Assembly (NCBI GenBank): GCA_026416035.1
Contig: JAOAFY010000009.1
Span: 1 to 36,718 of the forward strand
Origin: Coriobacteriia bacterium
GTDB taxonomy: Bacteria; Actinomycetota; Coriobacteriia; Anaerosomatales; Anaerosomataceae
Direction of reading: 5' to 3'
DNA length: 36,718 nucleotides
Position numbers and translations under genes: made by a program. The notes beneath the pieces were generated by a model. The model was not told the origin of the DNA. It searched no databases and was given only the letters and a program-made list of their open reading frames with translations. Positions 2,601 through 36,718 of the stretch are shown here, piece by piece (the first letter of the stretch is position 1; every line of letters starts with the position of its first letter).

Positions 2601-2633
2601 GTTCCCTCCGGCGACCGACACGGCGAGTATCGG

Positions 2634-2652: not shown

Positions 2653-2699
2653 GAGCAACATGCGCCGAAGGGTCGCCGTCAGCAGATGAGCGCGAAGCG

Positions 2700-3530: not shown

Positions 3531-3561
3531 GCGATCATCCTCCACTCTCCATAGACCATCG

Positions 3562-4500: not shown

Positions 4501-4501
4501 G

Positions 4502-5524
4502 TCAGATCGCCCTTTCCGTCGCGAGCCCGGTCTTGGTGCGCAAGCGCGAGAACGCAGCTCGAGCGAGGATCGAGGTCACCACGCTCACGACGAGAAGCGT
4601 CGCTCCAAGGCTGAACAGCGCCGATTCGACCTGCAGCACGCTCATCCCCTCGCCGTTCTCGACGATGGCCGAAGCGAGCGTGCGCACCGGTTCGAGGAAG
4701 GCGACGAACCCCCTATCGAGGTGCGGGATGTTCGCGAGACCGCCGGCCACCATCGCCATCGCGATCGCTTCACCGATGCCGCGAGCGGTGGCGAGGACGA
4801 TGCCTGCGACGATGCCAGGCAGGGCTGGTGGGATGACCAGCTTCGCGATGGTGCGCCACTTCGTCATGCCGAGCGCCAAGCCGCCGAACCGGTACGACTC
4901 AGGGACTGAGCGCATCGCGTCGGCGGACACGGCCACGACAAACGGGATGATCATGAAGGCGAGCACCAGAGAACCCGCCAACAGCGATTGACCATCAAGA
5001 GGCACGTCGACGTAGCGAAGCCCGAGTTCCTCCGTGATGAACGTCTTCTGAACGAACGGGACGACGACCGTGAGCCCGACGAGACCGAAGATGACGGAAG
5101 GCACGCCAGACAGCAGACGCACCGCGGTCGCCAAGATCCTGCCCAGACCAGGAGGCGCGACTTCCGACAGGATGATGGCGCACCCCACTCCCAGGGGTAC
5201 CGCCACCATCAGCGCTCCGGTCGTCGTCGCGAACGTCCCTACGAGCAACGGCAGCGCTCCGAAGCGCCAGAAGTCCGGATTCCACCACGCCTCCATGACC
5301 GCCCCGTCCCAGTCGGCCCTCGCCAGCCAGGCGAGGCCGTCGCGTGCGAGCAGGGGGTAGGCCTTCATGAAGACGAACGCGATGACGAACAGGATCGCCG
5401 CACCGGACGATGCAGCCGAGAACGCCAGTGCGCGCTCCACGAGCTTCTCGGTGCCGAGCCTCCCGAGCGACCCGTCTGCGCGAGAGAACCTCAGTCTGAT
5501 CGCTGCCTCCTGCGAAGACGACAT
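4502..5524 (-). CDS. pstC: Phosphate ABC transporter permease PstC
   Basis: Membrane subunit that pairs with PstA to form the phosphate channel. The 340-residue product has a cytoplasmic N-terminal tail, a first membrane helix near residues 33-53, a binding-protein-dependent permease core and an EAA loop containing RFGGLALGMTKWRTIAKLVI. I placed the start at the ATG at 5522-5524, preceded by AAGGGA. An ATG 30 bp upstream (5554) is in frame but has no comparable ribosome binding site and lies close to the large hairpin at 5569-5603. Its stop is 1 bp from the pstA start. Confidence 0.94.
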   Translation of the reverse strand: MSSSQEAAIRLRFSRADGSLGRLGTEKLVERALAFSAASSGAAILFVIAFVFMKAYPLLARDGLAWLARADWDGAVMEAWWNPDFWRFGALPLLVGTFATTTGALMVAVPLGVGCAIILSEVAPPGLGRILATAVRLLSGVPSVIFGLVGLTVVVPFVQKTFITEELGLRYVDVPLDGQSLLAGSLVLAFMIIPFVVAVSADAMRSVPESYRFGGLALGMTKWRTIAKLVIPPALPGIVAGIVLATARGIGEAIAMAMVAGGLANIPHLDRGFVAFLEPVRTLASAIVENGEGMSVLQVESALFSLGATLLVVSVVTSILARAAFSRLRTKTGLATERAI

Positions 5525-5568
5525 GTCTGTCCCTTCCATGCGGTCGTATGACATGTACGCGGACGGCT

Positions 5569-5603
5569 GCTGGCGCCGCCGAGGAATCCCCGGCGACGCC
5601 AGC
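5569..5603 (-). promoter_or_regulatory. Large hairpin in the pstS-pstC gap
   Basis: Arms 5569-5584 and 5588-5603 pair over 16 bp with a 3-nt loop. Two positions pair as G-U only when the minus strand is transcribed, so the structure favours the pst mRNA over the opposite strand. It starts 20 bp after the pstS stop. No U-run follows, so it is more likely an mRNA-protecting or partial-attenuation structure than a full terminator. Such an element would let pstS, whose product is needed in excess, outrun pstCAB. The pairing is read from sequence; the role is inferred. Confidence 0.7.
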
Positions 5604-5622
5604 GCCCCGCCGTGTACACGCC

Positions 5623-6450
5623 CTAGCGGATGGGCAGGTAGTACCTCGAGATGATCGACTGGCCTGTGGAGCTGAGGCAGTAGTCGATGTAGTACTTGGC
5701 AAGACCTGCGGGCCGACCCTTCGTGACGAGATAGAGCTTCCGCACGTACTTGTACGTGCCGTTCAGAGCGTTGGTGCGCGACGGATAGACCCCGCCGATG
5801 GAGATCGGCTTGACGGTCGAATTGACGAACGCCATCGACACGTATCCGATCGCATACTTGTTGCTCGCCACCGCCTGCCGCACGAGGCCGTTGGACTCGT
5901 ACGTCTTGACCCGGCTGGACTGCGTCACGCCGACGAGGAACCGCGACTTGAAGAACTCACCCGTACCAGAGGTCGCAGCACGACCCACCGGAACGATCGA
6001 GGCGTTCGGGCCGCCGACCTGCCTCCAGTTCGTGATTCTGCCGGTGTAGATGCCGGTGATCTGCGCCGCCGTGAGGTTCTTCACCGGGTTCGCAGGGTTC
6101 ACGATGATGGTGAGTGCGTCGCGGGCGATGGCCGTCGGATAGGCGCCCCTCTGCAGCTCGGTCGTGCGCAGGTCGCGGGAGCTCATGCCGATCGCGACAC
6201 GGCCCGCCAGAACGTCGTTGATGCCGACGCTCGAGCCGCCGCCCACGACCGTGATCCGGACCGCAGGGTACTTCTTCATGAACGAGGTCGCGACCGCTTG
6301 AGCAGCCGGCTGAACTGTCGTCGAGCCCGAGATCTTGATCGAGCCCGACAGGGCGCTCGCCGGTGCGGCGAAGCCTACGGCAAGGGCGACCGCAGCGGCG
6401 AACACCGCGAGCGCTCGCCTTTTCGGTGTCATCATCTTGCGCATCCTCAT
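5623..6450 (-). CDS. pstS: Phosphate-binding protein PstS
   Basis: Extracellular phosphate-binding component of the Pst importer, 275 residues. A signal peptide (RRALAVFAAAVALAVGFAA, cleavage probably after ASA near residue 33) is followed by the ligand-binding fold: SGSTTVQP (41-48), GGGSSVGIND (70-79), GMSSRDL (88-94) and SGTGEFF. These phosphate-contact segments are typical of PstS. There is no lipobox cysteine at the cleavage site, so unlike most Gram-positive PstS proteins it appears secreted rather than lipid-anchored. A start six bases downstream is possible, since ATG-AGG-ATG follows AGGAGG. It lies 27 bp after the CWB2 gene and is probably in the same transcript. Confidence 0.94.
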   Translation of the reverse strand: MRMRKMMTPKRRALAVFAAAVALAVGFAAPASALSGSIKISGSTTVQPAAQAVATSFMKKYPAVRITVVGGGSSVGINDVLAGRVAIGMSSRDLRTTELQRGAYPTAIARDALTIIVNPANPVKNLTAAQITGIYTGRITNWRQVGGPNASIVPVGRAATSGTGEFFKSRFLVGVTQSSRVKTYESNGLVRQAVASNKYAIGYVSMAFVNSTVKPISIGGVYPSRTNALNGTYKYVRKLYLVTKGRPAGLAKYYIDYCLSSTGQSIISRYYLPIR

Positions 6451-6477
6451 CTGCCTCCTTCCTTTCTCACGGAGTCG

Positions 6478-8217
6478 TTACTGGATGGCCTGGACCGCAG
6501 CATTGAACGCCGCGTCGGAGACCGCACCCGGGCCGCCGATCGTCACGATCCGCGCGAGCACGCCCTTGCGACCCGCGAGGAACGACTGGGTGTGCAGGGA
6601 CAGCGCCGAGGGCTCCGTGAGCAGGATCGCGCGACGGCGGCTGCCGTAGATCGGACCGGCTGCCATGGCGTCCGCGAAGCCGCGGCCAGAGCACAGGCCG
6701 ACGATCCGGCGGTTGAACCCGAACTCGTCGATGGCGAACGCTGCGATCCTTGCTGCCGTGTCGTACCGGTTCTGGCCCGCGAAGCGCTCCACGTCGCCCG
6801 AGAAGTCAGGCAGGGACTGGTCGCTCACCGCACCCGTGCCGCCGGCGACGTACAGGGTGTCGATGCCGTTCTTGTCGAAGAACTTCTGGGTAGAAGCCGG
6901 AACCCCGTCCGGACGCACGAACAGGATCGGCCATCCTGCAGCGGACGCCACAGGAGCGGCTGCCAGCGCGTCAGGGTAGTTCTGGCCGTTGGCGATGAAG
7001 GCACCGGTGCCCGCAGAGAAGGCGAGCCCGCGGTTCACCAGCTCCTGGGCGACCTGCGCCGCCGTCTCGTAGCGATCGCGGCCCATGACCCGCCGCACGA
7101 CGGGAACGCCCATGTCGCGGAGCTCGATCTCCTGGTCATATGGCACCGCTGCGGGCCCGCCGACGATGACGACTTCGATCGGCATGAGACGCTCGATCTC
7201 GGCACGCGTGGCCTCCGGCATCCCAGACGGCGAGGTGAGCAGCATCGGTCCCTCGAGGCCGTAGGCCAACGGGCCAGCAGCCAGAGAGTCCGGGAAGTTC
7301 ATCCCGTTCACGAGCACAGCCACGCCGCCGAAGCCGTCCTCGTACGCGCTCTTGGAGAGCTCCACCGCCGTCTCGAACCGATTCGCGCCCTGCACACGAT
7401 TAGACGGAAGAGCCGTCATCGTGACGTCGATCCCTGCCACCGGCACGCCGACGGTCACGGTGACGTCCTTTGCCGCTTGAACCGTCGCAGCGTTCGGGTA
7501 GTAGACCGTGCCGAAGACGTCATCAAGATCGACGAACCCGAGACGGTACACGCCTGCCGCAGGGCAATGGACGCGGTAGGTGCCGTCTGCCTTGCTGGAG
7601 CGGATCGCAACCGGCGTCCACATGCCCTCGCCGTCGATGATCTCCCACTTGAGAAGCTCGACAGTGATGGGAGCGGGAGACGCGCCGACGAACGAGACGC
7701 GGCCTTCGACGACGTTGACCGGATTCTCAGCCAAAGTCTGGTTGATCCCGGTCTTCTTCTCATTCGCAGCGACCACGACGTCTGTCGCCGATGTCACGGA
7801 AGACGCATTCAGGTAGTAGATGTCCTTGTAGACCAGCGCCGCGTCGAAGAAGCCGATCCGGTAGGTGCCCGGACCCGGCAGCGCGATGCAGTAGCTGCCG
7901 TCGGACTGCACATCTGCCCCGGCAGCAGCGGCCCACGTGGTGCCGTCGTAGGCGAAGGCCACCGCGGAGACTTCAGCATCGTCGGCGTACACACCAGGCT
8001 TGGTCACCACGCCGCTGATAGTCTCGCTCGCCTCTGCGGCCGGCTCGATGAGCGTCTTGATCGCAGCGGGCCCGCGGGACGTCAGATCATCGGCAGTCAC
8101 CGCTCGCGTGTTCGAAGCGGATGCGCCCGCTGCCGGGAGAAGACCGACGGCCGTGACCATGACGACGACCGCAGCCGCGAGCCTCCTGCGGAACGACCGC
8201 TTCACGGAAACTCCCAT
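6478..8217 (-). CDS. Secreted surface protein with three cell-wall-binding (CWB2) repeats
   Basis: Exported protein of 579 residues. A signal peptide (about 1-34, ending AGASA) is followed by two Ig-like or carboxypeptidase-regulatory-like beta domains (about 66-163 and 167-268; each has a DGTYR/DGSYC strand and a YYxN motif). Three CWB2 repeats follow (about 275-365, 376-463, 478-570), each with R(F/Y)(E/D)TA, a (N/G)(F/Y)xD(S/A)(L/M)AA motif and a (I/V)xGGxxAV motif. CWB2 triplets bind wall polymers in Gram-positive surface proteins. I chose the ATG at 8217 with AGGAGG 7 bp upstream. Only 27 bp separate it from pstS, so it heads the pst transcript. It may be a wall-anchored phosphate-stress surface protein or an adhesin; its substrate is unknown. 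Confidence 0.9.
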   Translation of the reverse strand: MGVSVKRSFRRRLAAAVVVMVTAVGLLPAAGASASNTRAVTADDLTSRGPAAIKTLIEPAAEASETISGVVTKPGVYADDAEVSAVAFAYDGTTWAAAAGADVQSDGSYCIALPGPGTYRIGFFDAALVYKDIYYLNASSVTSATDVVVAANEKKTGINQTLAENPVNVVEGRVSFVGASPAPITVELLKWEIIDGEGMWTPVAIRSSKADGTYRVHCPAAGVYRLGFVDLDDVFGTVYYPNAATVQAAKDVTVTVGVPVAGIDVTMTALPSNRVQGANRFETAVELSKSAYEDGFGGVAVLVNGMNFPDSLAAGPLAYGLEGPMLLTSPSGMPEATRAEIERLMPIEVVIVGGPAAVPYDQEIELRDMGVPVVRRVMGRDRYETAAQVAQELVNRGLAFSAGTGAFIANGQNYPDALAAAPVASAAGWPILFVRPDGVPASTQKFFDKNGIDTLYVAGGTGAVSDQSLPDFSGDVERFAGQNRYDTAARIAAFAIDEFGFNRRIVGLCSGRGFADAMAAGPIYGSRRRAILLTEPSALSLHTQSFLAGRKGVLARIVTIGGPGAVSDAAFNAAVQAIQ

Positions 8218-8320
8218 CCACACACCTCCTCGACTCTGGGCTATAGCCCTGTGCCATAGCCACGTCCGAGACGAGGGTAGGTGCGGCGACCGCGGCGTTG
8301 GTTTCAGCGGTCTTCAAAGA

Positions 8321-8338
8321 ATGTGTATTCGATGTGAC
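8321..8338 (-). promoter_or_regulatory. Possible Pho-type direct repeat upstream of the CWB2-pst operon
   Basis: On the minus strand GTCACA, 5 nt, then TACACA: two near-copies of a TCACA-type hexamer with exactly 11-bp periodicity, about 104-121 bp before the CWB2 start. PhoP-family phosphate regulators commonly bind repeats spaced 11 bp apart. Only two repeats are visible, each with mismatches to any published consensus, and no convincing -35/-10 pair was found, so this is a weak candidate. The rest of the 226-bp gap (8218-8443) holds a short hairpin at 8239-8261 and nothing else I can name. Confidence 0.25.
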
Positions 8339-8443
8339 CCTGAAACATCCGTGCAACCATCCCGCCGTCTGGATGCGCGCGGGCGCGAGATGCAGTGTGG
8401 TCAGGCGCTCGGATGTCGAAGCGGCGAGCCGCGACGACGGCTG

Positions 8444-8941
8444 CTACACCGCAAAGCCGCCGTGCTTCTTGAAGTGCTCGACCAGCCCGCCGTCTGCGAG
8501 AAGCTGCGCCATCACGGGCGGAAGCGGCGCGAAGGGGATCTCCGTGCCCTTGGTGAGGTTTCGCACGACTCCGCCTTCGAGATCGATCTCGAGCTCGTCG
8601 CCGTCGTCTATACGATCGGTATCACACTCCACCACCGGAAGTCCCGTGTTGATCGCGTTGCGGAAGAAGATGCGCGCAAAGCTCTTCGCGAGCACGGCCT
8701 TGGTGTTGCTGTGGATGAGCACGAGCGGCGCCTGCTCGCGGGAGGAGCCCATACCGAAGTTCTTGCCAGCCACGAGGATGCCCCCTGCCGGCTTGACCTT
8801 CGCGTAGTACTCAGGGTCGAGGTCCTCCATGGCGTGAACCGCCATGGCTTCCATGTCCGCCGACTTGAACTTGTACTTCCCAGAGATGATGTAGTCGGTG
8901 TTGATGTCGTCGCCGTACTTGAACGCGCGGGCGCGGATCAT
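8444..8941 (-). CDS. leuD: LeuD-type small subunit of a 3-isopropylmalate dehydratase-family hydro-lyase
   Basis: Swivel-domain subunit (165 residues, normal for the stand-alone small subunit) that completes the active site of the Fe-S hydro-lyase encoded just upstream. The N-terminal FKYGDDINTDYIISGKY segment and the GKNFGMGSSREQAP loop (60-72) are family hallmarks, as is FARIFFRNAINTGLP (88-102). Two departures stand out: the common GCGSSREHAP reads GMGSSREQAP, and the substrate-recognition stretch reads GKYKFKSAD rather than a YL-type sequence. The substrate may therefore be isopropylmalate, citramalate, homoaconitate or a dimethylmalate-like acid. ATG at 8941 has AGGAGG 10 bp upstream. 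leuC ends 14 bp before it. Confidence 0.82.
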   Translation of the reverse strand: MIRARAFKYGDDINTDYIISGKYKFKSADMEAMAVHAMEDLDPEYYAKVKPAGGILVAGKNFGMGSSREQAPLVLIHSNTKAVLAKSFARIFFRNAINTGLPVVECDTDRIDDGDELEIDLEGGVVRNLTKGTEIPFAPLPPVMAQLLADGGLVEHFKKHGGFAV

Positions 8942-24582: not shown

Positions 24583-26037
24583 TCACCCAAGCCGCCGGGC
24601 CCGCGCTATCAACGCTGACCTCAGCTCGTGCAGCCCCTTCTCGATGCCGACCGGGTAGATGTACGGCGCCACCAGGCGCTTCACGCTCGAATCGAGCCGG
24701 GCGAGCTGAGCCGCCGCCCGCGCTCGAGCAGCAGCGGCGTCCGGCACATCGTAGACGCGCTCCCCTCGCCTGAAGACGGGCACGAGCAGGTCCTCGTGGG
24801 AGTCGCCGCACATCCGCTTGCGCCGGATCGGGTCGCCCGGGTCGACCATCTCGCAGCGTCCGGGAAGCGGCTTCGTCTCGTCGTAGACCATGTCTCCGTC
24901 GAAGGTGTCACCGGCGACGAACCTACGCACCTGCAGCACTCCGGGTACGGTGGTCTTCGCGCTCTGCTCGGAGACCTTGATCCTGGGCTCCCACTGACCG
25001 CCCGGCTCACGCACCGCCGACAGCTTGTAGACCGCTCCGAGCGCGGGCTGTCCGTCAGCCGTCGCGAGCTTGGTCCCCACTCCCCACACGTCGATGGGGG
25101 CGCCCTGGTCCTTGAGCGCCTCGATCGTCTGCTCGTCGAGCTCGTTCGACGCGTAGATCTTGACGTGCCGCATCCCGGCCGCGTCGAGCATCTCGCGCGC
25201 ACGCGCCGCGAACCAGGCGAGGTCGCCCGAGTCGATCCGGATGCCGACGAGCGCCTGCCCGCGCTCGGCAAGCCGCCTGCCGACTTCGATGGCGTTGCGA
25301 ACCCCTTCGAGGGTGTCGTAGGTGTCCACCAAGAGGATGCAGTTGTTCGGCATCGCCTCAGCGTATGCGGCGAAGGCATCCGCCTCTCGCTCGAACGCCA
25401 TGACCCAGCTGTGCGCATGCGTGCCGCCGACCGGGATGCCGTATCGCTTCCCAGCGAGCACGTTGGAGGTCGCCACGCATCCGCCGACGTACGCCGCTCT
25501 GCTCGCCGAAAGGCCACCGTCCGGCCCTTGGGCGCGTCGCAGGCCGAACTCCACGACCGGAGCGCCCTTGGCGGCATGGCACACCCGCGCGGCCTTCGTC
25601 GCCACCAGGGTCTGGAATCCGATGATGTTCAGGAGCGCCGTCTCGACGAGCTGCGCCTGCGCTATCGGTCCTGTGACTCGTACGATCGGCTCGTTCGGGA
25701 AGACCACGGTTCCTTCAGGGGCTGCATCGACGTCGCAGGCGAAGCGCGTCGCGGCCAGCCACTCGAGGAACTCGGGGCTGAACAGCGGCTTGCCGTCTGC
25801 ACCCGAGAGCGTGGCGAGGTACGCGATGTCGTCTTCCTCGAACCGCAGCTGCTCGAGGTACTCGATGGCCTGCGCGAGCCCGCACGCGACCGCATATCCT
25901 CCGCCGAACGGGTGCGAACGGAACACCATGTGGAAGCACGCGTCCAGGCGCGCTGCGCCGCTACGCCAGTACGCGTAGGCCATCGTGATCTGGTAGAGGT
26001 CCGTGAGAAGCACGCCTGGCGTTGCGGGTCCGCCCAT
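24583..26037 (-). CDS. pncB: Nicotinate phosphoribosyltransferase
   Basis: Converts nicotinate and PRPP, with ATP, to nicotinate mononucleotide for NAD salvage. The 484-residue product begins PGVLLTDLYQITMAYAYW, and has the VEFGLRRAQGPDG segment (162-174), an expected phosphorylated histidine at about H209 in GGTHAHSWVMAF, RIDSGDLAWFA, and DVWGVGTKL. It is of the longer bacterial type. ATG at 26037 has AGGAGG 5 bp upstream (a GTG six bases earlier overlaps that site). The 98-bp gap to the ABC permease stop holds no obvious terminator, so the ABC genes may read through into this operon. Confidence 0.95.
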   Translation of the reverse strand: MGGPATPGVLLTDLYQITMAYAYWRSGAARLDACFHMVFRSHPFGGGYAVACGLAQAIEYLEQLRFEEDDIAYLATLSGADGKPLFSPEFLEWLAATRFACDVDAAPEGTVVFPNEPIVRVTGPIAQAQLVETALLNIIGFQTLVATKAARVCHAAKGAPVVEFGLRRAQGPDGGLSASRAAYVGGCVATSNVLAGKRYGIPVGGTHAHSWVMAFEREADAFAAYAEAMPNNCILLVDTYDTLEGVRNAIEVGRRLAERGQALVGIRIDSGDLAWFAARAREMLDAAGMRHVKIYASNELDEQTIEALKDQGAPIDVWGVGTKLATADGQPALGAVYKLSAVREPGGQWEPRIKVSEQSAKTTVPGVLQVRRFVAGDTFDGDMVYDETKPLPGRCEMVDPGDPIRRKRMCGDSHEDLLVPVFRRGERVYDVPDAAAARARAAAQLARLDSSVKRLVAPYIYPVGIEKGLHELRSALIARARRLG

Positions 26038-26135
26038 GCCCACCTCCTCGTGCGTATGGACAACGGTACCCGAACCCGTTCTTCAGGCGCCACTCCTGCA
26101 CCCGTTCGCGAGCCAGTGCACGGGCCGCGACGCCG

Positions 26136-26933
26136 TCAGGCAGCGTCCCGGCGCGAGAACACCGCCACGCTCCCCGCGAGCGTGAGCAGAGCGACCAGCC
26201 CGTACAGCCACCATGCCTCGGGTTTGACCTGACCGCCGTCCATGACGACGCCTGGCTGCCACGCGCTCACGAGGTTCACCGGACCGAAGAAGTCCGCGAC
26301 GTCCGAGACGTTGGCAACGAAGTCGCTCACCCACATCAGCGCGACGATGCCGGCGGCGATGCCTCCCGCCTTTCCGCCGCCCCGGACCGCTGCGCTGATC
26401 AGCATGCAGATGCCGCCTGCGGCGAGCATGAACAGCGTCCCAAGCGCCGTCAGCGTCCACAGCGCCTCCGCTCCCAGCTTCACGCCATAGGCGGGTCCGA
26501 ACGCCTGGATCGACCCGAACGTAGCCAGCGCGAGCAACGCCGAGATCGCCACGAGCCCGACGACGCGGCTTGCGCCCACCCGTACCCGCGAGACTGGCTG
26601 CGCCAGAGTGAGCTCCATCGTGCCGTCGGCGATCTCGCCCGCGAACGCTCGCGAAGCGTAGATGAAGACCGCAGAGAACACGATGAGCATCCACATCAGC
26701 CCCAGGTACTCGATCTGGAAGAAGCCGCCGATGGTGCCGAACGAGACCTGGGTCCCGCCGAGCATCTTGAGCATCTCCGGAGGAAGGCTCTCCACGAGCT
26801 TCTGATACTCCTCGCCACCGATGTTCGGCCAGTACCAGACCATGATCCACGAGTAGAACAGCAGGCCGCTCACGTACCAGGCGAGCGAGGTCCTTCGCTG
26901 CCACAGCGACGCGCGAAGCACCGTCCAGCTCAT
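26136..26933 (-). CDS. ABC-2 type exporter permease
   Basis: 265-residue integral membrane protein with about six helices, of the ABC-2 (ABC2_membrane) type. The N-terminal cytoplasmic helix WTVLRASLWQRRTSLAWY leads into the first membrane span; a later FAGEIADGTMELTLAQPVSR (97-116) is the typical coupling-loop motif of this class. It presumably forms the membrane pore for the adjacent ATPase. Substrate unknown; relatives export antibiotics, lipids or peptides. Its ATG overlaps the ATPase stop (ATGA), so translation is coupled. Confidence 0.88.
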   Translation of the reverse strand: MSWTVLRASLWQRRTSLAWYVSGLLFYSWIMVWYWPNIGGEEYQKLVESLPPEMLKMLGGTQVSFGTIGGFFQIEYLGLMWMLIVFSAVFIYASRAFAGEIADGTMELTLAQPVSRVRVGASRVVGLVAISALLALATFGSIQAFGPAYGVKLGAEALWTLTALGTLFMLAAGGICMLISAAVRGGGKAGGIAAGIVALMWVSDFVANVSDVADFFGPVNLVSAWQPGVVMDGGQVKPEAWWLYGLVALLTLAGSVAVFSRRDAA

Positions 26934-27883
26934 CGCGGCTCGCCTCCCTCCGAACCCGGCGTCGCCGCCTCGCCACCGGTGACCTCCACGGAATCCTCGC
27001 TCCGATAGAACTCCATGAACACCTCTTCGAGGCTGGCGTGCTGGATGCTCAAGTCCACGACCCGCTTCGTGGCGAGCCGCTTGACCACGTCATCGAGGTG
27101 ATCGCCCTTCACTCGGGCAACGAACGTGCTCGGCGAGCGCTGCTCGAGGTTCGCAAGACCTGGGACGCCATCGAAGAACGCGGCGTCGACTGGCTCCGCG
27201 AAGCTGACCACCAGCTCCCGGAGCCGCTTGTCCAGCAGGTCACGGACGCTCTCCTCCGCCGCGAGCCGCCCCTGCCGGATGATGCCGACGCGGTCGCATA
27301 TCCTCTCGACTTCTGACAGCACGTGGCTCGACAGAAACACCGTGGCACCATCCCTAACGCGCTCCTCGATGATGCTGAAGACCGTTTCCTGGTTCAGGGG
27401 GTCGAGCCCGGAGGTCGGCTCGTCCAAGATGAGCACCTCCGGCGCGTGCATGAGTCCGAGGATGAGCGCCAGCTTCTGCTTGTTGCCCTTCGAAAGCTCC
27501 TTGACCCTGCGGGACGGGTCGAAGTCGAGCCGGGCGATCAGGTCGTCGGATGCCACCGGTCGAGCGCCGCGCAGCCCGGCGACGTAGTCGATGTGCCACC
27601 TGCCGGTCTCCTTCTCGAAGAGGCGGATCTCTCCGGGCACGTAGCCGACGCGCCGCCGCAGCGTGGACCCGTCGAGCGTGACGCGCTGTCCGAACAGACG
27701 GGCCTCCCCGGCCGTGGGCCGCAGCACCCCGAGCAGGCAGCGGATCGTCGTGGTCTTGCCGGCGCCGTTCGGACCGAGGAACCCGTAGACCGAACCCTCG
27801 GGCACTTCCAGCGACAGCCCCTCGACGCCCCGCGTCTTGCCGTAGTACTTGGTGAGCCCGACGCACTCGATGATGCCCGCCAC
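26930..27883 (-). CDS. ABC-2 type exporter ATP-binding protein
   Basis: 317-residue ATPase of the drug/lipid exporter class. Walker A GPNGAGKTT (37-45), signature ELSKGNKQKLAL, Walker B VLILDEPTSGLDP and switch histidine SSHVLSEVERICD are present. A C-terminal domain of about 100 residues follows the ATPase core, as in BcrA/DrrA-like proteins. The GTG at 27881-27883 was chosen because AAGGAGG lies 7 bp upstream; longer upstream frames lack domain content. It pairs with the permease through a 4-bp overlap. The 137-bp divergent gap to the MFS gene (27884-28020) shows no promoter I could assign. Confidence 0.92.
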   Translation of the reverse strand: MAGIIECVGLTKYYGKTRGVEGLSLEVPEGSVYGFLGPNGAGKTTTIRCLLGVLRPTAGEARLFGQRVTLDGSTLRRRVGYVPGEIRLFEKETGRWHIDYVAGLRGARPVASDDLIARLDFDPSRRVKELSKGNKQKLALILGLMHAPEVLILDEPTSGLDPLNQETVFSIIEERVRDGATVFLSSHVLSEVERICDRVGIIRQGRLAAEESVRDLLDKRLRELVVSFAEPVDAAFFDGVPGLANLEQRSPSTFVARVKGDHLDDVVKRLATKRVVDLSIQHASLEEVFMEFYRSEDSVEVTGGEAATPGSEGGEPR

Positions 27884-28020
27884 GCGATCGCCTCCTTCTT
27901 CCTGGTCACGAGCGTACACCCAGAGGCTTCCAGAGACCAGAAGGATGGGTCGCCGGACCGCACGCACCGCCGCTGTTTCGTATACCATTGGCGCTTGTCT
28001 GCATATCACGACGAAGGGCG

Positions 28021-29274
28021 ATGACGATCGACCGAGACGTGCGACGTGCGCTTGGGGCACGCTTCATATCGAGGGCAGGTAGCGAGGCCGCGTTCTTCAT
28101 CGGAGTGTGGGGCAAGGCCGCGTATTCGCTGCACGCCACGCCGCACCAGATCGCGCTGGTGATGTTCTGCCTGAGCGCTTCCTCCATCGCCGGCAGCATG
28201 CTCGGCGGCATCCTCGTCGACCGCTACGGCCCGAGGCGGGTCATCATGGGCGCTGAGGCGCTGTTCGTGCCCGTGGCCCTCGCCGTAGCCCTCGCGGGCT
28301 CGTTCGGCACCTTGGTACCGCTGGTCGCGCTGTGGGGCCTCGCCGGTTCACCCATCCAGACGGCTGGCGCATCCCTTGCGCCGTACCTCGTCTCGGAGCG
28401 CTCGTCGTTGGCCCGGATGAACTCGCTCTTGGAATCCGCAGGATCGCTGGCGTTCATCACCGGGCCCGTGGTCGGAGCCCTCGTGTCTCGCACGCTCGGC
28501 GTGGACGCGGTCTTCGTCTTCGACGCCCTCACCTCGCTCGTGGCTGTCGCCCTGTTCGCTTCGACGCGGATCGCTGGTCCCCGGCCCGCGGCGCGCCGGA
28601 CGCATCCGCTCACGGAGCTCGCTGCCGGGATCAAGACCGCATACGGCATGCGCTCGCTTCGGTTCTACGTGCTCGCGGGGACGGTGACTTGGCTGGGGTT
28701 CGGTGCGTTCGGAGCACTCGAACCGTTGTTCTACCGCGACGTCGTCCGGGCCGGCGTCGAGGCGATCGGGTACATGAACGCCGTCTTCGGAGCCGGCATC
28801 CTGCTGGGTGCGACGCTCCTTAGACGGCTGCCCCGCCGCGTCGTGTCCGCGCAAGGCCTCGCAGCCGCCGTTGCCCTGACGGGAGCAGGCAGCGTCCTGT
28901 ACGTCGGGACCTCCGACCTGCGCATCATCGCCTTCGGCGCCTTCGCGTGGGGGACCGTCGTGGGGTCGCTCGAGCCGCTGCTCAGGACGCTCGTCCACCG
29001 AGACACACCGCACGAGCTCGTCGGGCGGGTCACGGGGACTGCGCAGGTGCACAAGCAGGCAGGCGAACTCGTCCCTCTGGCCTTCGCGCCCGCACTCGCG
29101 GCGACCCTCGGCGTGCAGCAGACGCTCATCGCAGGCGGCATGTTCACCGCCCTCGCGGCGTCGCTCGGCATGCTCGAGGCGCGGGCCATCGACAGGGCTG
29201 TGCCGCGCGGTGCAGCCGTCGTCGAGATCCAGCCGCTGCTGGCGTCGGACGAACCGATATCGCCAGTTCGCTGA
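28021..29274 (+). CDS. MFS transporter (drug/metabolite efflux type)
   Basis: 417-residue membrane protein with about 12 helices. GGILVDRYGPRRVI after helix 2 is the MFS A-loop, and SLLESAGSLAFITGPVVGAL fits the antiporter-type helix 5 motif. The arrangement is that of MFS_1/MFS_3-like exporters; no substrate can be named. The ATG at 28021 has GAAGGG 2-7 bp upstream and begins directly before a short cytoplasmic tail, as expected. It converges on the Mrp-like operon with 6 bp between stop codons. Confidence 0.86.
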   Translation: MTIDRDVRRALGARFISRAGSEAAFFIGVWGKAAYSLHATPHQIALVMFCLSASSIAGSMLGGILVDRYGPRRVIMGAEALFVPVALAVALAGSFGTLVPLVALWGLAGSPIQTAGASLAPYLVSERSSLARMNSLLESAGSLAFITGPVVGALVSRTLGVDAVFVFDALTSLVAVALFASTRIAGPRPAARRTHPLTELAAGIKTAYGMRSLRFYVLAGTVTWLGFGAFGALEPLFYRDVVRAGVEAIGYMNAVFGAGILLGATLLRRLPRRVVSAQGLAAAVALTGAGSVLYVGTSDLRIIAFGAFAWGTVVGSLEPLLRTLVHRDTPHELVGRVTGTAQVHKQAGELVPLAFAPALAATLGVQQTLIAGGMFTALAASLGMLEARAIDRAVPRGAAVVEIQPLLASDEPISPVR

Positions 29275-29280: not shown

Positions 29281-31926
29281 CTACCACCGCACCACCGACC
29301 ACACGAACACGAGCAGCACGACCGCGATCACAGCGACGTTGAAGCTCATGTCGCGCGCGTACCGTGTGATGGCCTGGCGCGTCAAGACGATGCTTTCCTC
29401 GCTGCTCGAGGTATCGAACACCCTGCCCGCTCGCTCGCGCGTGAGCGCATCCGCTGCGAGGCGGAGCATGTCCAGCATCCAGCGCGAGCATCGCCACGAC
29501 GTCGCCGCAGCAGGACCGCCTCTCGCGCGAGAGGCCCACCCGAGCCTCCCTGCAAGGTGCGAAGGCGCCGTCTCCGCCTGGGACGCAAGACGGTCGGCGA
29601 CGACTGGCCGACGTCTCGTCGCAGCCCGGACCTTCAGATCGAAGCGCTCTTCGCTCGCCGCTGCGTTCGCCGCTGCCGCAAGCTGGCGCACCACGTCGCG
29701 TCCAGCACGCCGGTCTGACGCTGCGGCGAACGCAGCCGCCGCGATGCGCTCTCGGGTGCTCACGGCATCGGCGACCAGACCGTCTATGCGCTCGAGCACC
29801 GCCTCCGCATGGCCCTGCCTCACGGCGTCCTGAACGGCTGCCAGTCGCACAGCGAACAACCGATGTGCGATGTAGCTGGCCGAATCGCGCACGGCCTCGA
29901 TCGCGTCGCGCCACTCGGCCTCGTCGGTGACGCCTGCGGACGCCAGCAGGCGGATGGTCCTGTCTACCGCGGTCCGAACCTCGTCCTGACGCTCCACCTC
30001 TAGCACCAGCTCAGCCCGCGCCAGCGCCCTACGCGCCTCTGAGTCGGCGACTCCCGTCGTCACAAGCGCGATGGCGCGACGGTACGCCCGCTCGATGCGT
30101 ACACGGGCACGCTCGTACCAGTTCTGCAGGTCGTGCAGCGCCTCCGAAATGCTTCGCAGGTAGGCGGCGTACCCGTCTGCGACCCAGCCGCTGGCACACC
30201 ACAGCCCGCGTACGGCGCGCTGGTACCACCAGTCGATGGACAGCCAGTGCGGCAGGTGGGCGTGGAACAGACCCGTCCTCATCCCGATCACGAACACCGT
30301 CGCACCGATGGCGAACGCGACGAGGACCGAGGAGATGTCGCCCCAGCTCAAGAAGTACTCCGACAGGTACTCTTCGAGGATGTCAGGATGCAGCCCCCAC
30401 AGGTGCAGCCCCGGCTCGAAGATGCCGCGGATCACCATCTGCGGGCGGACTCCCAAGACCACGATCGCCGCTGCCAGCAGCCCCATCGCAGCGAGCATCC
30501 TCGGAGAGGCTTCGCGCACTTCAGGGCCTGTCTCGACCTTCTCACGACCGAGGAACACCAGCCCGATCAGCTTGATGAACGAGCACGCCGTTCCGCCGCA
30601 GGTCACGACGTACACCTTCTCAGCCAAGCCGAGGGATGCGATGTGATGCAGGTCTGCGGCCTCCACGATCGCGTGGTGGATGATGCACTTGCTCACGAAG
30701 CCGTTGAACAGCGGCACGCCGGTGATGCCCGCCGCCGCCACCACCATGAAGGCGAACGTCATCGGCATCCGCTTCCATAGCCCGCCCAGGTGGTACATGT
30801 CCAGCGAGCGTGTCCGCAGGTACACTGCGCCGACCCCGAGGAAGAGGCATGCCTTGAACAGCGCGTGGTTCAGGACGTGGAAAAGGCTCCCCGCGATGCC
30901 CATCGCGCCATGCGCACCGAGGTAGCCGGCGGCCCCGATGCCTGCCAGGATGAAGCCCATCTGCGAGACTGAGTGGTACGCCAGCATGCGTTTTGCGTTG
31001 CTCTGCAGAAGCGCCATGCACACGCCGGTGAACATCGTGAACACGCCGATCCACAACACGGCAAGACCGAGGTGCTCGCTGAACGCCCAGGCGCGCTCTT
31101 CAAGGTGCTCAGCGACTTCAGGCCGGAACAGCGCGGTGACCGTGCGGAAGATGCCGTAGGCACCGGCCTTGATCATCACCCCCGAGAGCAGCGCACTCGC
31201 GGGAGACGGCGCCACGGGGTGGGCATCGGGCAGCCAGACGTGCACCGGCTGCATGCCGGCCTTCACGCCAAACCCAAGGACGAGCAACGCCGCAGCCGTC
31301 CAGCGCAGCGCCGCAGGACCGCCTGCTGGCAACGGCGCAAGCTCGCCGTGGCCCCCCAGATAGAACGTGAGCATGATCCCGGCGAACAGCGCGAACCCGC
31401 CGATGACCGTCATCCAGAAGTACTTGATGCCGGCCTTCTTGGCCTCGTCGGTCTGCGCGTGCACGACGAAGAGGAACGCCACCAGCCCGAGCGCTTCGAA
31501 GAACAGGTACAGCGTCACGAGGTCGGCTGCCGTCACGACGCCGAGCATCGAGGCCAACGCCACGAGGTTCGTCACGTGGTAGCGGTCGTGGTGCCGCTCG
31601 TGGGCGAGGTAGTCCAGCGCGTACAGGGTCGAAGCGAACCAGACGAACGCTGCGAACAGGGCGAACAGAAGCGAGAACGGATCGACCGCAAATGCAAGGC
31701 CACCCACGACGGCAGGGACGCTGGCGACGATGCGATGATGCTCCGCTACCTGCGGCACCATCGCAGCCACGACGGCGAGGTCGGCCGCGACGACGGCTAC
31801 GACGAACGCATCGCGCACCGTCGGCCGGATCCGACCCAGGAGCGGAACGGCAGTCGCTGAGGCCAGTGGCAGCGCGACCGCCGCCGCCGGCAGCAGGCTT
31901 ACGAACGTTCCTGCCTCACCGTGCAT
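29281..31926 (-). CDS. NuoL/MrpA-type ion-translocating subunit with a ~290-residue C-terminal extension
   Basis: 881-residue membrane protein. Residues 1-555 form the proton_antipo_M fold shared by complex I and Mrp antiporters: E144 in LFFEALGL, K222 in GFGVKAGM, K253 in GVMIKAG, SVSQMGF (319-325), HVLNHALFK (350-358) and K413 in NGFVSK, all on the expected proton path. Residues about 575-860 form a soluble, Ala/Arg/Glu-rich, mostly helical region with no motif I recognise. A final membrane helix (863-880, NVAVIAVVLLVFVWSVV) ends the protein. Typical D/M/N subunits are near 500 residues, so the tail is additional. It is the last gene of the operon, 12 bp after the previous one. The ATG has GAGG close by. 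Confidence 0.9.
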   Translation of the reverse strand: MHGEAGTFVSLLPAAAVALPLASATAVPLLGRIRPTVRDAFVVAVVAADLAVVAAMVPQVAEHHRIVASVPAVVGGLAFAVDPFSLLFALFAAFVWFASTLYALDYLAHERHHDRYHVTNLVALASMLGVVTAADLVTLYLFFEALGLVAFLFVVHAQTDEAKKAGIKYFWMTVIGGFALFAGIMLTFYLGGHGELAPLPAGGPAALRWTAAALLVLGFGVKAGMQPVHVWLPDAHPVAPSPASALLSGVMIKAGAYGIFRTVTALFRPEVAEHLEERAWAFSEHLGLAVLWIGVFTMFTGVCMALLQSNAKRMLAYHSVSQMGFILAGIGAAGYLGAHGAMGIAGSLFHVLNHALFKACLFLGVGAVYLRTRSLDMYHLGGLWKRMPMTFAFMVVAAAGITGVPLFNGFVSKCIIHHAIVEAADLHHIASLGLAEKVYVVTCGGTACSFIKLIGLVFLGREKVETGPEVREASPRMLAAMGLLAAAIVVLGVRPQMVIRGIFEPGLHLWGLHPDILEEYLSEYFLSWGDISSVLVAFAIGATVFVIGMRTGLFHAHLPHWLSIDWWYQRAVRGLWCASGWVADGYAAYLRSISEALHDLQNWYERARVRIERAYRRAIALVTTGVADSEARRALARAELVLEVERQDEVRTAVDRTIRLLASAGVTDEAEWRDAIEAVRDSASYIAHRLFAVRLAAVQDAVRQGHAEAVLERIDGLVADAVSTRERIAAAAFAAASDRRAGRDVVRQLAAAANAAASEERFDLKVRAATRRRPVVADRLASQAETAPSHLAGRLGWASRARGGPAAATSWRCSRWMLDMLRLAADALTRERAGRVFDTSSSEESIVLTRQAITRYARDMSFNVAVIAVVLLVFVWSVVRW

Positions 31927-31938: not shown

Positions 31939-33441
31939 TCACCGGAAGAACCCCTCGGCCGCCGCTTTCGCCAGCTGGAGCGGAGACCACGCCGGCGTGG
32001 TGCACAGCCCGAGCACGACCACCAGCAGCACCGCCGCTGCCAGTGGAGCCAACATCGTCGCAGGCGCTTCTGGCGCACCCGCCTGCGCCAACGGCGATCC
32101 CTCAACGACAGGGGCCGGTTCGTTGAAGTACATCCGGTACACGATCGGCAGCAGGTACACGCCTGCGAGCAGGGCGCCGCCGACCAGCACCCCCAGGTAC
32201 GCCACTTGGCCGGAGTCCAGGATGCCCAGACCGAGGTACCACTTGCTGACGAAGCCGGCGAGCGGCGGCGTGCCGATCATCGCAAGGGAAGTCGCCGCGA
32301 ACGCGGCTGCCGTAACCGGCATTCGCTTCGCGACGCCGTCCATCTCGCGCACCGAGCGCACTCCCAGCCGCTTGATGATCAGCCCAGCACAGAAGAACAG
32401 GGCGCCCTTCATGAACGCGTGGTTCGCCACATGCACGATCGCGCCCGTCGCAGCCTGCGCGTCTACGAGCGCGACCCCGAGAGCGACGTATCCCATCTGC
32501 GAGATAGTCGAGTATGCGAGACGACGCTTGATGTCGTCTTGGTGCATCGCGAGCACGGCTGCGAACACCACGGTGAACGCCGCCAGGGCCGCCACCTGCT
32601 TCATCACCGCGAGCTCACGCACAAGGCCGACTCCGAAGACGTTGTAGACCACGCGCATGATCCCGAAGGAGCCGGTGGCCACCATCATGCCGGACAGCAC
32701 AGCCGAGAACGGCGCAGGGGCTGCCGGATGGGCGTCGGGCACCCAGCCGTGAAGGGGGACCAGGGCTGCTTTCACGCCGAACCCCGCGATGAAGCACCAG
32801 AACACCACGAGCAGCTGGCCGCGCCCCATCCCGAGATCCAGCAACGGCGAACCGATGTCCTGAGCGCCTGCCAGGAAGTACGCGTAGACGATGGCGAGCA
32901 GGACGAGACTGCCTCCGATGAGGATGTACACGATGTACTTCGTCCCGGCAGCCAGGGCTTCGGGCGTCTGCTCGTGGACCACGAGCGGGTAGGTCAGGAT
33001 GCTGAAGAGCTCGTAGAACACGAGGAACGTCAGCAGGTTGCCGGAGTACGCCACACCCACGGTCCACGCCAGGCTCAGCATGAAGAACGCGTAGTAGCGT
33101 CCGAGCCGGTGCTCGTCGGCCATATAGCCGAATGAGTACACCAGCGCGAGCAGCCACAAGACGGCTGCTGCCATGCCATACAGGGCACCGAGCCGGTCGA
33201 CGCGAAGGTGTATCCACACCTGGGGAGTCATCTTCACCAACCGCACGGACTGCGTCGCCCCACTCGAGGCGCGCACGAGGACTGAGCCCGCGAGCACGAC
33301 CGTCAGGATGCTTGCGGCCGCAAGGACGAGGCGTCGCCGGGTCTCGGGCCACGCCCCCGAGAGGCCCGCGACGACGCCGCCCAGCAGCGGCGTGAAGACC
33401 GCAGCAGGGACGATCCAGCTCGCCTGCGCTCCTGCTTCCAT
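31939..33441 (-). CDS. NuoM/NuoN/MrpD-like ion-translocating subunit (missing the helix-8 lysine)
   Basis: 500-residue subunit with about 14 helices of the antiporter-like family. E144 (VFYELFSILTYP), K224 (GFGVKAALVPLHGW) and K400 (AGFVSKWYLGLG) are conserved. The lysine expected in transmembrane helix 8 is not: the segment reads SGMMVATGSFGIMR where the other three subunits have an I/V-K-x-G. NuoL shares this kind of change, so it may be functional. ATG with GGAGG 5 bp upstream. It lies 12 bp after the previous gene and 12 bp before the 881-residue subunit. Confidence 0.88.
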   Translation of the reverse strand: MEAGAQASWIVPAAVFTPLLGGVVAGLSGAWPETRRRLVLAAASILTVVLAGSVLVRASSGATQSVRLVKMTPQVWIHLRVDRLGALYGMAAAVLWLLALVYSFGYMADEHRLGRYYAFFMLSLAWTVGVAYSGNLLTFLVFYELFSILTYPLVVHEQTPEALAAGTKYIVYILIGGSLVLLAIVYAYFLAGAQDIGSPLLDLGMGRGQLLVVFWCFIAGFGVKAALVPLHGWVPDAHPAAPAPFSAVLSGMMVATGSFGIMRVVYNVFGVGLVRELAVMKQVAALAAFTVVFAAVLAMHQDDIKRRLAYSTISQMGYVALGVALVDAQAATGAIVHVANHAFMKGALFFCAGLIIKRLGVRSVREMDGVAKRMPVTAAAFAATSLAMIGTPPLAGFVSKWYLGLGILDSGQVAYLGVLVGGALLAGVYLLPIVYRMYFNEPAPVVEGSPLAQAGAPEAPATMLAPLAAAVLLVVVLGLCTTPAWSPLQLAKAAAEGFFR

Positions 33442-33453: not shown

Positions 33454-34929
33454 TCACATCTTGAACACGAACTCCACCGCGGCACGCGCGAGCGCGAACG
33501 GCATCCCCGGGACGTCGCTCGTCGTGCCGAGCACCACGACCCACGCCGCACACGCGATCGTGGGCACCAACAGGACCGGCTTTGCCTCCCTCCGTTGCAC
33601 CTCCTGCCCCTCGGGGCCCTTGAAGAAGGCGAGGTACACGATCGGCAACCAGTACGCAGCGTTCAGAAGCGAGCTGGCGACCATGACGAGCGCGAACCAC
33701 CACATACCTGCCTCAAAGGCGCCGACGGACAGGTACCACTTGGTGATGAACCCCGCGAACAGCGGGACGCCGACGAATGACAGCGATGCGACGGTGAAAG
33801 CGGCCATGGTCCACGGCATCTGGTGCCCGACACCGCCGAGTTCGTGCACCTGAGTCTTGCCGGTAGTCCTCTGGATCGCGCCAGCGGCGAAGAACATCGT
33901 GATCTTGGCGAACGCCTGGTTCGCGATGTGCGCCACGGCCGCGCTCGCGGCGGCCGGCGTCAGCAATGCGGCGCCGAGCACGATGTAGGAGAGCTGGCTT
34001 ACCGTCGAGTAGGCGAGCCGACGCTTGAGGTTGTCCTGGAACATCGCAGCCACCGACCCGGCGATGATCGTGAAGGCGGCCAGGTACGCGAGGGGCACCG
34101 TGTACCCGAGGCGCTTGAGCAGCTCGATCCCGAACACGTTGTACACGACGCGCAAGACGCCGAACGCGCCCACCTTCACGACCGCCACCGCGTGCAGCAG
34201 TGCGCTCACCGGAGTCGGGGCGACCATCGCGCTCGGCAGCCATCCGTGAAGCGGCATGACCGCCGCCTTCACCCCGAATCCCGCAACGAGCGTCACGAAG
34301 AGGACAGCAAGCGAGCGCGGATCTGCAGCGGCGGGCAGCACGCCGGGTCTGGACAGGGTGAGCGTCCCAGCAATCTGGTACGTCAGCGCCGAGCCAAGCA
34401 GTATGCATGCGCCTCCCACAAGCGTGTACGCCAGGTACTTCCTGCCGGCGCGCAGCGCCTCGGGCGTCTCCTCGTGAATCACGAGAGGGTAGGTGCATAT
34501 AGTCAGCGTCTCGTAGAAGACGAACAGCGTGAGCAGGTTTTCTGCGAACGCGACGCCGACGGTCGTCGAGACGCACAGCGCAAAGAAGCCGAAGAACCTG
34601 ACCTTCGCGTGCTCTGGCTCCATGTAGCCGATGGCGTACACCGTGGTGATCAGCCACAGCGCCGATGAGACCAGGGCGAAGAACATGCCGAGCGCGTCCG
34701 CCCTGAACGTGATGCCGATGCCTGGCGTGAACTCGATGAGGTTCCACACGAACGTCTTGCCAGTAAGCGCCGCCGGCAGCATCGAGAGCACGACCACGAA
34801 CTTCAGCGCAGCTGCCCCGAGACTCCAGAACCGTCGCCAGAACACGCTCCTGCCCGTCAGGAACACTAGCCCCGAGCAGGCGAACGAGATGGCTGGGGCG
34901 AGCAATACCCTCACGTCCGCCGTTTCCAC
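33454..34929 (-). CDS. NuoM/MrpD-like ion-translocating subunit
   Basis: 491-residue antiporter-like membrane subunit. E140 (VFYETLTICTYP), K221 (GFGVKAAVMPLHGWLP), K252 (VVKVGAFGVLR) and K397 (AGFITKWYLSVG) are all present, so the proton path is complete. GTG at 34927-34929 was chosen because GGGAGG lies 5 bp upstream; it is 1 bp from the stop of the mrpD-like gene, so translation is coupled. An earlier in-frame start would add seven residues inside the preceding gene. The downstream gap to the next subunit is 12 bp. Confidence 0.89.
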   Translation of the reverse strand: METADVRVLLAPAISFACSGLVFLTGRSVFWRRFWSLGAAALKFVVVLSMLPAALTGKTFVWNLIEFTPGIGITFRADALGMFFALVSSALWLITTVYAIGYMEPEHAKVRFFGFFALCVSTTVGVAFAENLLTLFVFYETLTICTYPLVIHEETPEALRAGRKYLAYTLVGGACILLGSALTYQIAGTLTLSRPGVLPAAADPRSLAVLFVTLVAGFGVKAAVMPLHGWLPSAMVAPTPVSALLHAVAVVKVGAFGVLRVVYNVFGIELLKRLGYTVPLAYLAAFTIIAGSVAAMFQDNLKRRLAYSTVSQLSYIVLGAALLTPAAASAAVAHIANQAFAKITMFFAAGAIQRTTGKTQVHELGGVGHQMPWTMAAFTVASLSFVGVPLFAGFITKWYLSVGAFEAGMWWFALVMVASSLLNAAYWLPIVYLAFFKGPEGQEVQRREAKPVLLVPTIACAAWVVVLGTTSDVPGMPFALARAAVEFVFKM

Positions 34930-34930: not shown

Positions 34931-36424
34931 TCAGCCTCCCGTCGGAGCAAGCATCCGGGTCACCACGGGCTCTATGAAGGTCAGGGGCACCTTCCCCGCA
35001 AGCCCCATGGCGAGGCAGAGCGCAGCGAGAACCCACATGGGCACCAGCATTGAAAGCGGAGGGTCTCCAACGTGCGTGACTTCTGCGCGTACCGGCTCCT
35101 GGAAGTAGAACGCATTGAGCATCCGGATGTAGTACACGAAGATGAACAGGGCACCGAAGACGAGCGCGAAGCCGAAGGCGGCGTTCTTCGCCTCGAACGC
35201 CCCGAGTGCGATGTACCACTTGCACAGGAACCCGGCGGTGGGCGGTATGCCGACGATCGACACCGCCCCTACCGCAAGCGCCGCTCCCGTCAGCGGCATG
35301 CCGCGGCCGACCCCACGCAGGTCGCTCAAGCGCCGGTACCCCGTCTGGTAGATGATCGCTCCGGCGCTGAGAAACAGCGCGGACTTGATGAGCGCGTGGT
35401 TGAAGATGTGCACGGCCGCGCCTACCAGAGCGTACCGTGACGCCAGGCCGAACCCCATGACGATGTAGCCGACGTTGGAGATGGTGGAGTACGCGAGCAT
35501 CATCTTGATGTCGTCTTGGAACATCGCGAAGAACGCGCCCATCACGATCGATGCCGCCCCGAGCCACGTCAGGAGCCGGTTGAGCGTCACAAGGTCCACG
35601 GCTCGCGATGCGTAGACAACCTGGTACAACCGCAGCATCCCGACGAGGCCCACCTTCACCACGAGCCCCGACAGAACCGCGCTGACCGGGCTCGGAGCGA
35701 TCGCGTGCGCGTCTGGAAGCCATACGTGCAGCGGGAACAGCGCGGCTTTGACCATGAATCCCAGCACGATCGACCCGACCGCCACCGCGACAGGAACGGT
35801 ATCGGCCACGACGCTCAAACGCTGGGTGGCATCCGCGATGTTCAGCGTGCCGGTCACGCCGTACAACATCCCGATCCCGAACAGCACGAAAAGCGAGGAC
35901 ACGGCGCCGAGCACGAGGTACTTGAACGCGGCCATCTCCGCGATGCGCTCGCCGCTTATCGCCACCAGCGCGTAGCCGGACAGCGAGATGATCTCCATGA
36001 AGACGTAGAGGTTGAACATGTCTCCCGTGACCGAGAATCCGATCAGCCCCGCAAGGTTGAGCAGCAGCAGCGCGTAGTAGTACGGGATGCGGGCCTCGTC
36101 GAGGGCATGGGGCGCGTACCTCAGTGAGAACACGATTGCAAGCGCTCCGAGGAACGCGACCACGAACGCGAACGCGCTCACCTCGTCGAACCGGAACTCG
36201 ATGCCGTACGGAGGCGTCCAGCCCCCGAAGGTGTACGAGAACGGGCCTTCTTGGGCCACGCGGATGACGAGAGGAAGCGACGCTCCGACCGTGGCCGCGA
36301 CCGCCGTGGCGGCCCAGACCCATGCCGCCTTGGTGCTCTTGCGAGAGATCGCCGGGGTCACCACGCCGGCGCCGAGCGGCACCAGCACGACGAGAGGGAG
36401 CCAATGCGGCCACTGCCACCACAT
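34931..36424 (-). CDS. mrpD: MrpD-like Na+/H+ antiporter subunit
   Basis: 497-residue membrane subunit closest by eye to MrpD/MnhD: it follows an MrpC gene directly and has E144 (VFMEIISLSGYALVA), K226 (GFMVKAALFPLHVWLPDAH), K257 (LSGLVVKVGLVG) and K402 (AGFLCKWYIALG). SGYALVAISG and PDAHAIAPSPVSA are typical MrpD segments. It would carry one proton or sodium path in the complex. The ATG begins immediately after the mrpC stop (TAGATG), so the two are co-translated. Confidence 0.88.
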   Translation of the reverse strand: MWWQWPHWLPLVVLVPLGAGVVTPAISRKSTKAAWVWAATAVAATVGASLPLVIRVAQEGPFSYTFGGWTPPYGIEFRFDEVSAFAFVVAFLGALAIVFSLRYAPHALDEARIPYYYALLLLNLAGLIGFSVTGDMFNLYVFMEIISLSGYALVAISGERIAEMAAFKYLVLGAVSSLFVLFGIGMLYGVTGTLNIADATQRLSVVADTVPVAVAVGSIVLGFMVKAALFPLHVWLPDAHAIAPSPVSAVLSGLVVKVGLVGMLRLYQVVYASRAVDLVTLNRLLTWLGAASIVMGAFFAMFQDDIKMMLAYSTISNVGYIVMGFGLASRYALVGAAVHIFNHALIKSALFLSAGAIIYQTGYRRLSDLRGVGRGMPLTGAALAVGAVSIVGIPPTAGFLCKWYIALGAFEAKNAAFGFALVFGALFIFVYYIRMLNAFYFQEPVRAEVTHVGDPPLSMLVPMWVLAALCLAMGLAGKVPLTFIEPVVTRMLAPTGG

Positions 36425-36718
36425 CTACTCCAGCTCCCTCAACTCGTCGGCCTCGATAGTCCCGCACTGGCGCCACACCCGCACGATGAGGCTCAACGCA
36501 AGCGCAGTGGTGCTCACCGCCACCACGATCCCGGTGAGGATCAGCGCCTGAGGTATCGGGTTCACGAACGGTGGGTGCGCGTCGGCACCCATGATCGGTG
36601 CGCTGCCGCCATCGACGACCCCGAGAGCGACGATGAACGCGAAGACCGAGGTCTCCATGATGTTGAGGCCCATGAACTTCTTGATCAGGTTGTTCTTCGC
36701 GATCACGCAGTACAGGCC
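36425..36718 (-). CDS. mrpC: MrpC/NuoK-like small subunit (5' end beyond the right edge)
   Basis: The visible 97 residues include the central GLYCVIAKNNLIKKFMGLNI helix start and the hallmark NPIPQALILTGIVVAVSTTALAL segment. Both match MrpC/MnhC, the NuoK-like three-helix subunit of Mrp antiporters. The in-frame coding continues to the edge (four codons beyond the internal GTG at 36706), so the true start and first helix lie outside. Its stop abuts the mrpD ATG. Other Mrp subunits (A/B, E, F, G) would be expected further to the right, but are not visible. Confidence 0.85.
   Translation of the reverse strand, partial: GLYCVIAKNNLIKKFMGLNIMETSVFAFIVALGVVDGGSAPIMGADAHPPFVNPIPQALILTGIVVAVSTTALALSLIVRVWRQCGTIEADELRELE

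Follow-up and report, generated by a model that had tools for sequence, protein, structure and literature searches.

The long tail of A', the protein encoded by the last gene of an operon from a Coriobacteriia bacterium, is the lateral brace known from complex I and Mrp antiporters, enlarged by a soluble helical domain. We consider A' to be probably the distal subunit of a redox-free Mrp complex with four antiporter subunits, in which the enlarged lateral segment would brace the array and the helix bundle within it would clamp or regulate the subunit D3. The encoded system is most likely a cation/proton antiporter of the Mrp type whose array of antiporter subunits is longer; its assembly, stoichiometry and transport we infer. 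How complex I-like pumps acquired their subunits, and whether the lateral helix acts as a piston, a brace or a ruler, has long been debated, and the joint occurrence of an enlarged brace and a fourth subunit suggests a way in which such complexes grow longer. Complex I is already known to have variants with additional pump subunits and with a longer lateral helix. For a folded domain that lies within the lateral segment of an A subunit of the Mrp type and is tied to a fourth antiporter-like subunit, no precedent was found in the libraries and papers searched, and the searched literature yielded no report of an Mrp system with three MrpD subunits or an enlarged MrpA lateral segment.

An Mrp-type operon with four antiporter-like genes

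The window, that is, the whole stretch of DNA analysed, is a complete contig of 36,718 nucleotides from a genome of 1.58 Mb in 115 contigs. As the first-pass annotation had proposed, four antiporter-like genes stand in a row, all on the minus strand. A' (29281..31926; NuoL/MrpA-N-like, 881 residues) was assigned from its open reading frame, Pfam (PF00361/PF00662), NCBIfam and full-length conservation. Upstream of it lie D3 (31939..33441; MrpD/NuoM-like, without the TM8 lysine; Pfam, key residues and tree), D2 (33454..34929; MrpD-like; Pfam, key residues and relatives) and D1 (34931..36424; MrpD-like; Pfam, NCBIfam and key residues). The GTG start of D2 was picked by comparison with relatives, the listed frame beginning with TTG at 34950. 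The operon beyond position 36718 is missing because the window is the whole contig, whose end cuts mrpC (NuoK-like): the last 294 bases (36425..36718, minus strand) are the 3' part of that gene, recognised by its translation and by the full gene in sister genomes. On the other side, positions 24583-29274, outside the operon, hold genes for a nicotinate phosphoribosyltransferase, for an ABC-2 permease and its ATPase, and for an MFS transporter that is convergent with A'.

Operon content was read in 10 regions of the window's order, and in addition in Wenzhouxiangellaceae. The gene order in sister genomes is GGDEF-type gene, mrpE, mrpF, mrpG, MbhD, MbhE/MnhB, mrpC, D1, D2, D3, A'; Wenzhouxiangella sp. 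15190 and its relatives have the same order without the GGDEF-type gene. The small subunits of Mrp (CPA3) systems are thus all present in sister genomes (MNHE, MrpF_PhaF, PhaG_MnhG_YufB, MbhD, MbhE/MnhB and Oxidored_q2). A membrane GGDEF-family gene opens the operon in L066-L072, L075 and L155; it has lost the GGDEF motif in the window's order, and GGEEF is kept in other families.

Like MrpA-N (TMH1-16; PDB 7qru, 6z16), A' has a 14-TM core, TM15, the start of a lateral helix, a final TM16 and an operon with mrpC-G. The C-terminal domain of MrpA (TMH17-21) is not fused to it: A' stops after TM16, and, as in MBH, MbhD and MbhE/MnhB have genes of their own. Unlike Mrp/Mnh, which has a single D gene, the operon carries three. 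More than one mrpD per cluster is also described for group 3 mrp clusters (Microbacterium mrpFGBCDDAE, cyanobacteria; PMC5703873); these have two D genes, and the section of the review that treats them does not mention an enlarged A tail.

The gene content bears on one of three roles suggested for the tail at first reading, a docking platform for a soluble oxidoreductase, which would make the complex a redox-driven pump. Complex I, MBH and FHL do join such subunits with redox modules. However, no redox gene, of the kind that accompanies complex I or group 4 hydrogenases, was found in the operons read, those of the relatives hold only Mrp subunits and the GGDEF-type gene, and the soluble bundle of the tail has no cysteine and no oxidoreductase-like match. 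We therefore reject this role as very improbable.

A' keeps a complete antiporter core in a single frame

The A' reading frame has 881 codons and no internal stop. Its ion-translocating core (residues 1-505, TM1-14; 30412..31926, minus strand), delimited by invariant columns and a PDB profile match to MrpA/MbhH, carries E144, K222, K253, H350, H354, K358 and K413. Claimed to be complete, the core is so: E144, K222, K253 and K413 are present and invariant across the 29-row alignment, and A' has the NuoL/MrpA-N hallmark set (TM5 Glu, TM7 Lys, TM8 Lys/His, TM12 Lys). Full-length identity to the 28 aligned relatives is 48-78%. Pfam recognises only the antiporter core (Proton_antipo_M at 133-424, and Proton_antipo_N).

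The interval first singled out, 29281-30204, encodes residues 575-881 of A'. Its description as Ala/Arg/Glu-rich is two-thirds right, Ala (20.5%) and Arg (14.6%) agreeing with it and Glu reaching only 6.2%. The tail was detected in 33 of 199 searched genomes, a count that includes its own, and most of the frames had the same size; tail and core nearly always share a single long open frame in the relatives searched. A scan of genome contigs yielded a single named relative, Wenzhouxiangella sp. 15190. Around this organism, a class-wide search recovered the tail in one of 274 genomes and in no other, and a family search at least part of it in eight of 43. A plasmid search returned only distant NuoL/MrpD matches, none of which covered the tail.

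The tail occupies the place of the lateral helix, between TM15 and TM16

The tail had been seen as a C-terminal extension of a complete NuoL ending in an extra membrane helix. Both points have to be revised. In MrpA the lateral helix runs from TMH15 to TMH16 as a brace of the complex (PMC7419157). NuoL is built alike, with a helix between TM15 and TM16 (PMC3274701); both proteins end in TM16 behind the lateral helix. The family profile of A' aligned with the solved MrpA chains to residue 585 (7qru_A) and 578 (6z16_A), covering TM15 and the start of the lateral helix, and the same two chains are the best Foldseek matches of the full A' model. TM15 itself (residues 528-551; 30274..30345, minus strand) is a Kyte-Doolittle peak and is recovered by AlphaFold2 and by the alignment with both chains. 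Behind it, the first lateral amphipathic helix (residues 564-624; 30055..30237, minus strand; AlphaFold2, hydrophobic moment up to 0.64) begins at a conserved W..D.WY motif that matches the tail start of short-tailed A' proteins elsewhere in the phylum. Because the MrpA alignment passes TM15 and this motif is shared with short tails, we identify the tail as the lateral segment, lying between TM15 and TM16.

The membrane helix proposed at residues 863-880 is real: the tail contains a single hydrophobic helix, with its peak at 861-879. It lies within residues 844-880 (29287..29397, minus strand), a helix with the conserved motif RY.RDMSFN followed by TM16 (861-879), delimited by hydrophobicity, alignment, AlphaFold2 and dN/dS (0.132). 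Since the tail occupies the position of the lateral helix, this helix is TM16 and no addition. A profile of the last 41 residues of A' gave no significant match to NuoL C-termini, so the identity of TM16 rests on topology and order together with a short shared pattern, I..Y..D. A' thus has the NuoL/MrpA-N layout, with TM15, lateral helix and TM16 behind a 14-TM core, TM16 being assigned by position only. What sets A' apart from MrpA-N is the size of the lateral segment, 298 residues with a soluble bundle, as against 83 and 59 in the two other NuoL-type proteins of the same genome.

A constrained, confidently predicted domain within the lateral segment

The first-pass annotation had suggested a structure prediction of the 881-residue chain alone. 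We ran AlphaFold2 on full-length A' and on the tail alone, and it yields a confident soluble bundle in the tail. The predicted order is a 61-residue helix (564-624), the bundle (629-771), a stretch of uncertain structure, the amphipathic helix 805-835 and the TM16 helix (844-880). The bundle (29614..30042, minus strand) has a pLDDT of about 92-97 in the tail-alone model. It is followed by a low-confidence, fast-evolving linker (772-804; 29515..29613, minus strand; pLDDT below 50 in the full-length model) and by the second amphipathic helix (29422..29514, minus strand), which is of low confidence, appears as a helix in the tail model and has a hydrophobic moment of 0.45-0.56. The full-length model has a pTM of 0.64, and its placement of the tail relative to the core is unreliable.

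Sequence searches of the tail against Pfam, NCBIfam and PDB found nothing, and Pfam gave no convincing match for 30 tails; a PDB hit to glucose-6-phosphate isomerase (E 0.004) was weak and is attributed to chance. The tail model had no Foldseek match at E<=0.001. The bundle is thus a confidently predicted domain without a Pfam or PDB match, and none of these searches linked it to a described NuoL/MrpA tail domain. The claim of a large soluble helical domain, undescribed for NuoL, is borne out.

Within the genus, dN/dS is 0.129 for residues 625-772 and 0.132 for residues 843-881, close to the value of the core (0.134), and rises to 0.37 for residues 556-624 and 0.51 for residues 773-803. These values indicate that the tail is a real part of the protein, in which a constrained domain is accompanied by a variable lateral helix and a loose linker. 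They also bear on whether the tail could be a neutral or degenerate extension, a frame artefact or, as first considered, a separate gene joined by a frame error. The rapid evolution of the linker and the first lateral helix, and a middle part that varies between families, would suit a neutral tail. Against this, bundle and TM16 are as constrained as the core, relatives have one frame, and the tail contains invariant residues (e.g. G625, E645, R680, R694, G742, E760, D763, R858 and D859). Conservation refutes a neutral or artefactual tail and a separate tail gene, and we give such explanations practically no weight.

The main rival to a brace or clamp is that the bundle serves another cytoplasmic protein, e.g. 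a signalling partner, for docking or regulation, its coincidence with a fourth subunit being historical. The bundle is well folded and constrained, yet a clamp made of helices does not require a domain of this kind. Other families have a middle part of the tail with a dissimilar sequence and with other repeats, as if different modules had been inserted. The GGDEF-family membrane protein that heads most long-tail operons of the window's phylum might provide a signalling link. However, a GGDEF-type gene is absent or unseen in the long-tail operons L073, L074, L076, L128 and L129, adjoins the short-tail operon L149, and has lost its motif in the window's order; no conserved downstream partner gene was noticed. 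On balance we regard docking as rather unlikely, and prefer the bracing and clamping of the array.

Tandem repeats of 27, 28, 33 and 58 residues occur elsewhere in the lateral segment (L033 and L034, L053, L064, L130), those of L033 and L034 lying ahead of the second amphipathic helix. The length of the lateral segment therefore varies by duplication in several lineages.

Size of the brace and number of antiporter-like subunits

We tallied 29 operons, nine with three and 20 with four antiporter-like genes. The three-subunit operons (L139-L141, L143-L147, L149) encode D1, one further D and A'. They belong to other families within the window's phylum and resemble the window operon in gene order, in the clade of their A' and in a W..D.WY-like tail start; they differ in having only these three antiporter-like subunits and a lateral segment of 88-123 residues (9/9; 88-91 in seven of them), too short for the bundle. 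Of the four-subunit operons, 18 were measured and have segments of 236-359 residues; the remaining two have an A' frame of comparable length (20/20). One genome, G296, carries both kinds, the short L149 and the long L150. Among the 29 operons tallied, the enlarged lateral segment thus occurs only together with a fourth antiporter-like gene. Of the three roles suggested at first reading, a coil bridging four tandem subunits fits best for this reason.

The A' proteins all group in a single clade (SH-aLRT 99). In the tree, D3 and the second D of the three-subunit operons are sister groups. The change in length and subunit number happened once or twice on the A' tree, so the link between the two is suggestive and not statistically independent.

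The same pair of traits, an insertion in the lateral helix and an extra antiporter-like subunit, marks the extended arrays of '2M'-type complex I (extra NuoM/MrpD; Nitrospira, Manganitrophaceae), whose NuoL, like A', has its lateral helix between TM15 and TM16. There, added pump subunits are reported to go with an insert of 26 residues (PMC9040806). Here there is no redox arm, and the added segment, far longer than 26 residues, amounts to about 200 residues with a folded domain. Without bundle and linker (residues 625-804) the lateral segment has 118 residues, and that of three-subunit relatives about 91; the two values differ by close to 26, in a sum made post hoc. A ruler alone fails to explain the bundle, because a pure ruler needs 26 residues and about 200 were added. 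Operons with three, four and five antiporter-like genes, whose braces differ in size and which lack a redox arm, form a natural series that allows the brace to be tested by itself.

As judged from sequence, A' would be the distal NuoL/MrpA-N-like subunit of an Mrp-type cation/proton antiporter, with a row of antiporter-like subunits A', D3, D2 and D1 ahead of C, MbhD, MbhE/MnhB, G, F and E. The four subunits would form one complex in gene order. The lateral segment, a cytoplasmic-face brace in NuoL/MrpA, is enlarged here by about 180 residues (bundle plus flexible linker). Its flanking amphipathic helices may run along the array and clamp it, and the bundle may serve as a cytoplasmic clamp or regulatory domain above the added D3. 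A longer array would be expected to alter the proton:cation ratio.

D3 has lost the TM8 lysine

In D3 of the window, MVATG stands in place of V.K.G, and the equivalents of E144, K222, K358 and K413 are kept. The TM8 lysine of D3 is replaced in all 15 operons checked, by Ala in 13 and by Cys in two (the five-subunit family), and is kept in D1, D2 and A' of the same operons. The loss is thus fixed throughout the four- and five-subunit operons checked, which span two phyla, and this indicates that the central lysine path is altered in the subunit adjoining A' (next but one in the five-subunit family). It offers a separate test of which subunits need a full proton path. In the three-subunit operons L139, L141, L143 and L144 the TM8 lysine is lost (Glu or Ala) in D1, not in the D that adjoins A'.

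26-residue repeats and five-subunit operons

A bolder proposal is that the Mrp array has grown to four subunits (to five in one family), that the brace grows in 26-residue steps plus the bundle, and that D3 is a modified relay and not a full channel; we put this forward tentatively, as somewhat short of probable. PMC9040806 reports a 26-residue lateral-helix insert where complex I has gained a pump subunit, and 26-residue repeats occur in some relatives of A'. In G203 (L148), which counts among the four-subunit cases, the lateral helix of A' (1404-4568) contains a perfect 78-bp (26-residue) array of 2.7 copies. The same locus has two D3 genes (5077-6651 and 7183-8757) that are 100% identical and form a 2106-bp tandem repeat, and D2 is missing. 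The D3 duplication and the array reflect either a recent event or an assembly error. Since misassembly can produce perfect repeats and gaps in a draft genome, we treat the 26-residue repeats as a lead.

Five antiporter-like genes are present in two genomes of one family, G442 (L125) and G266 (L126), in both of which A' is interrupted by N gaps. In G266 a repeat of 26 residues opens the lateral helix beside the assembly gap, and at least 348 residues lie from the gap to TM16. G442 has at least 314 residues after a longer gap, in which the 26-residue repeat itself is not resolved. The extra D of both five-subunit operons carries an A'-like TM8 motif (LSGVMIKAGAYG).
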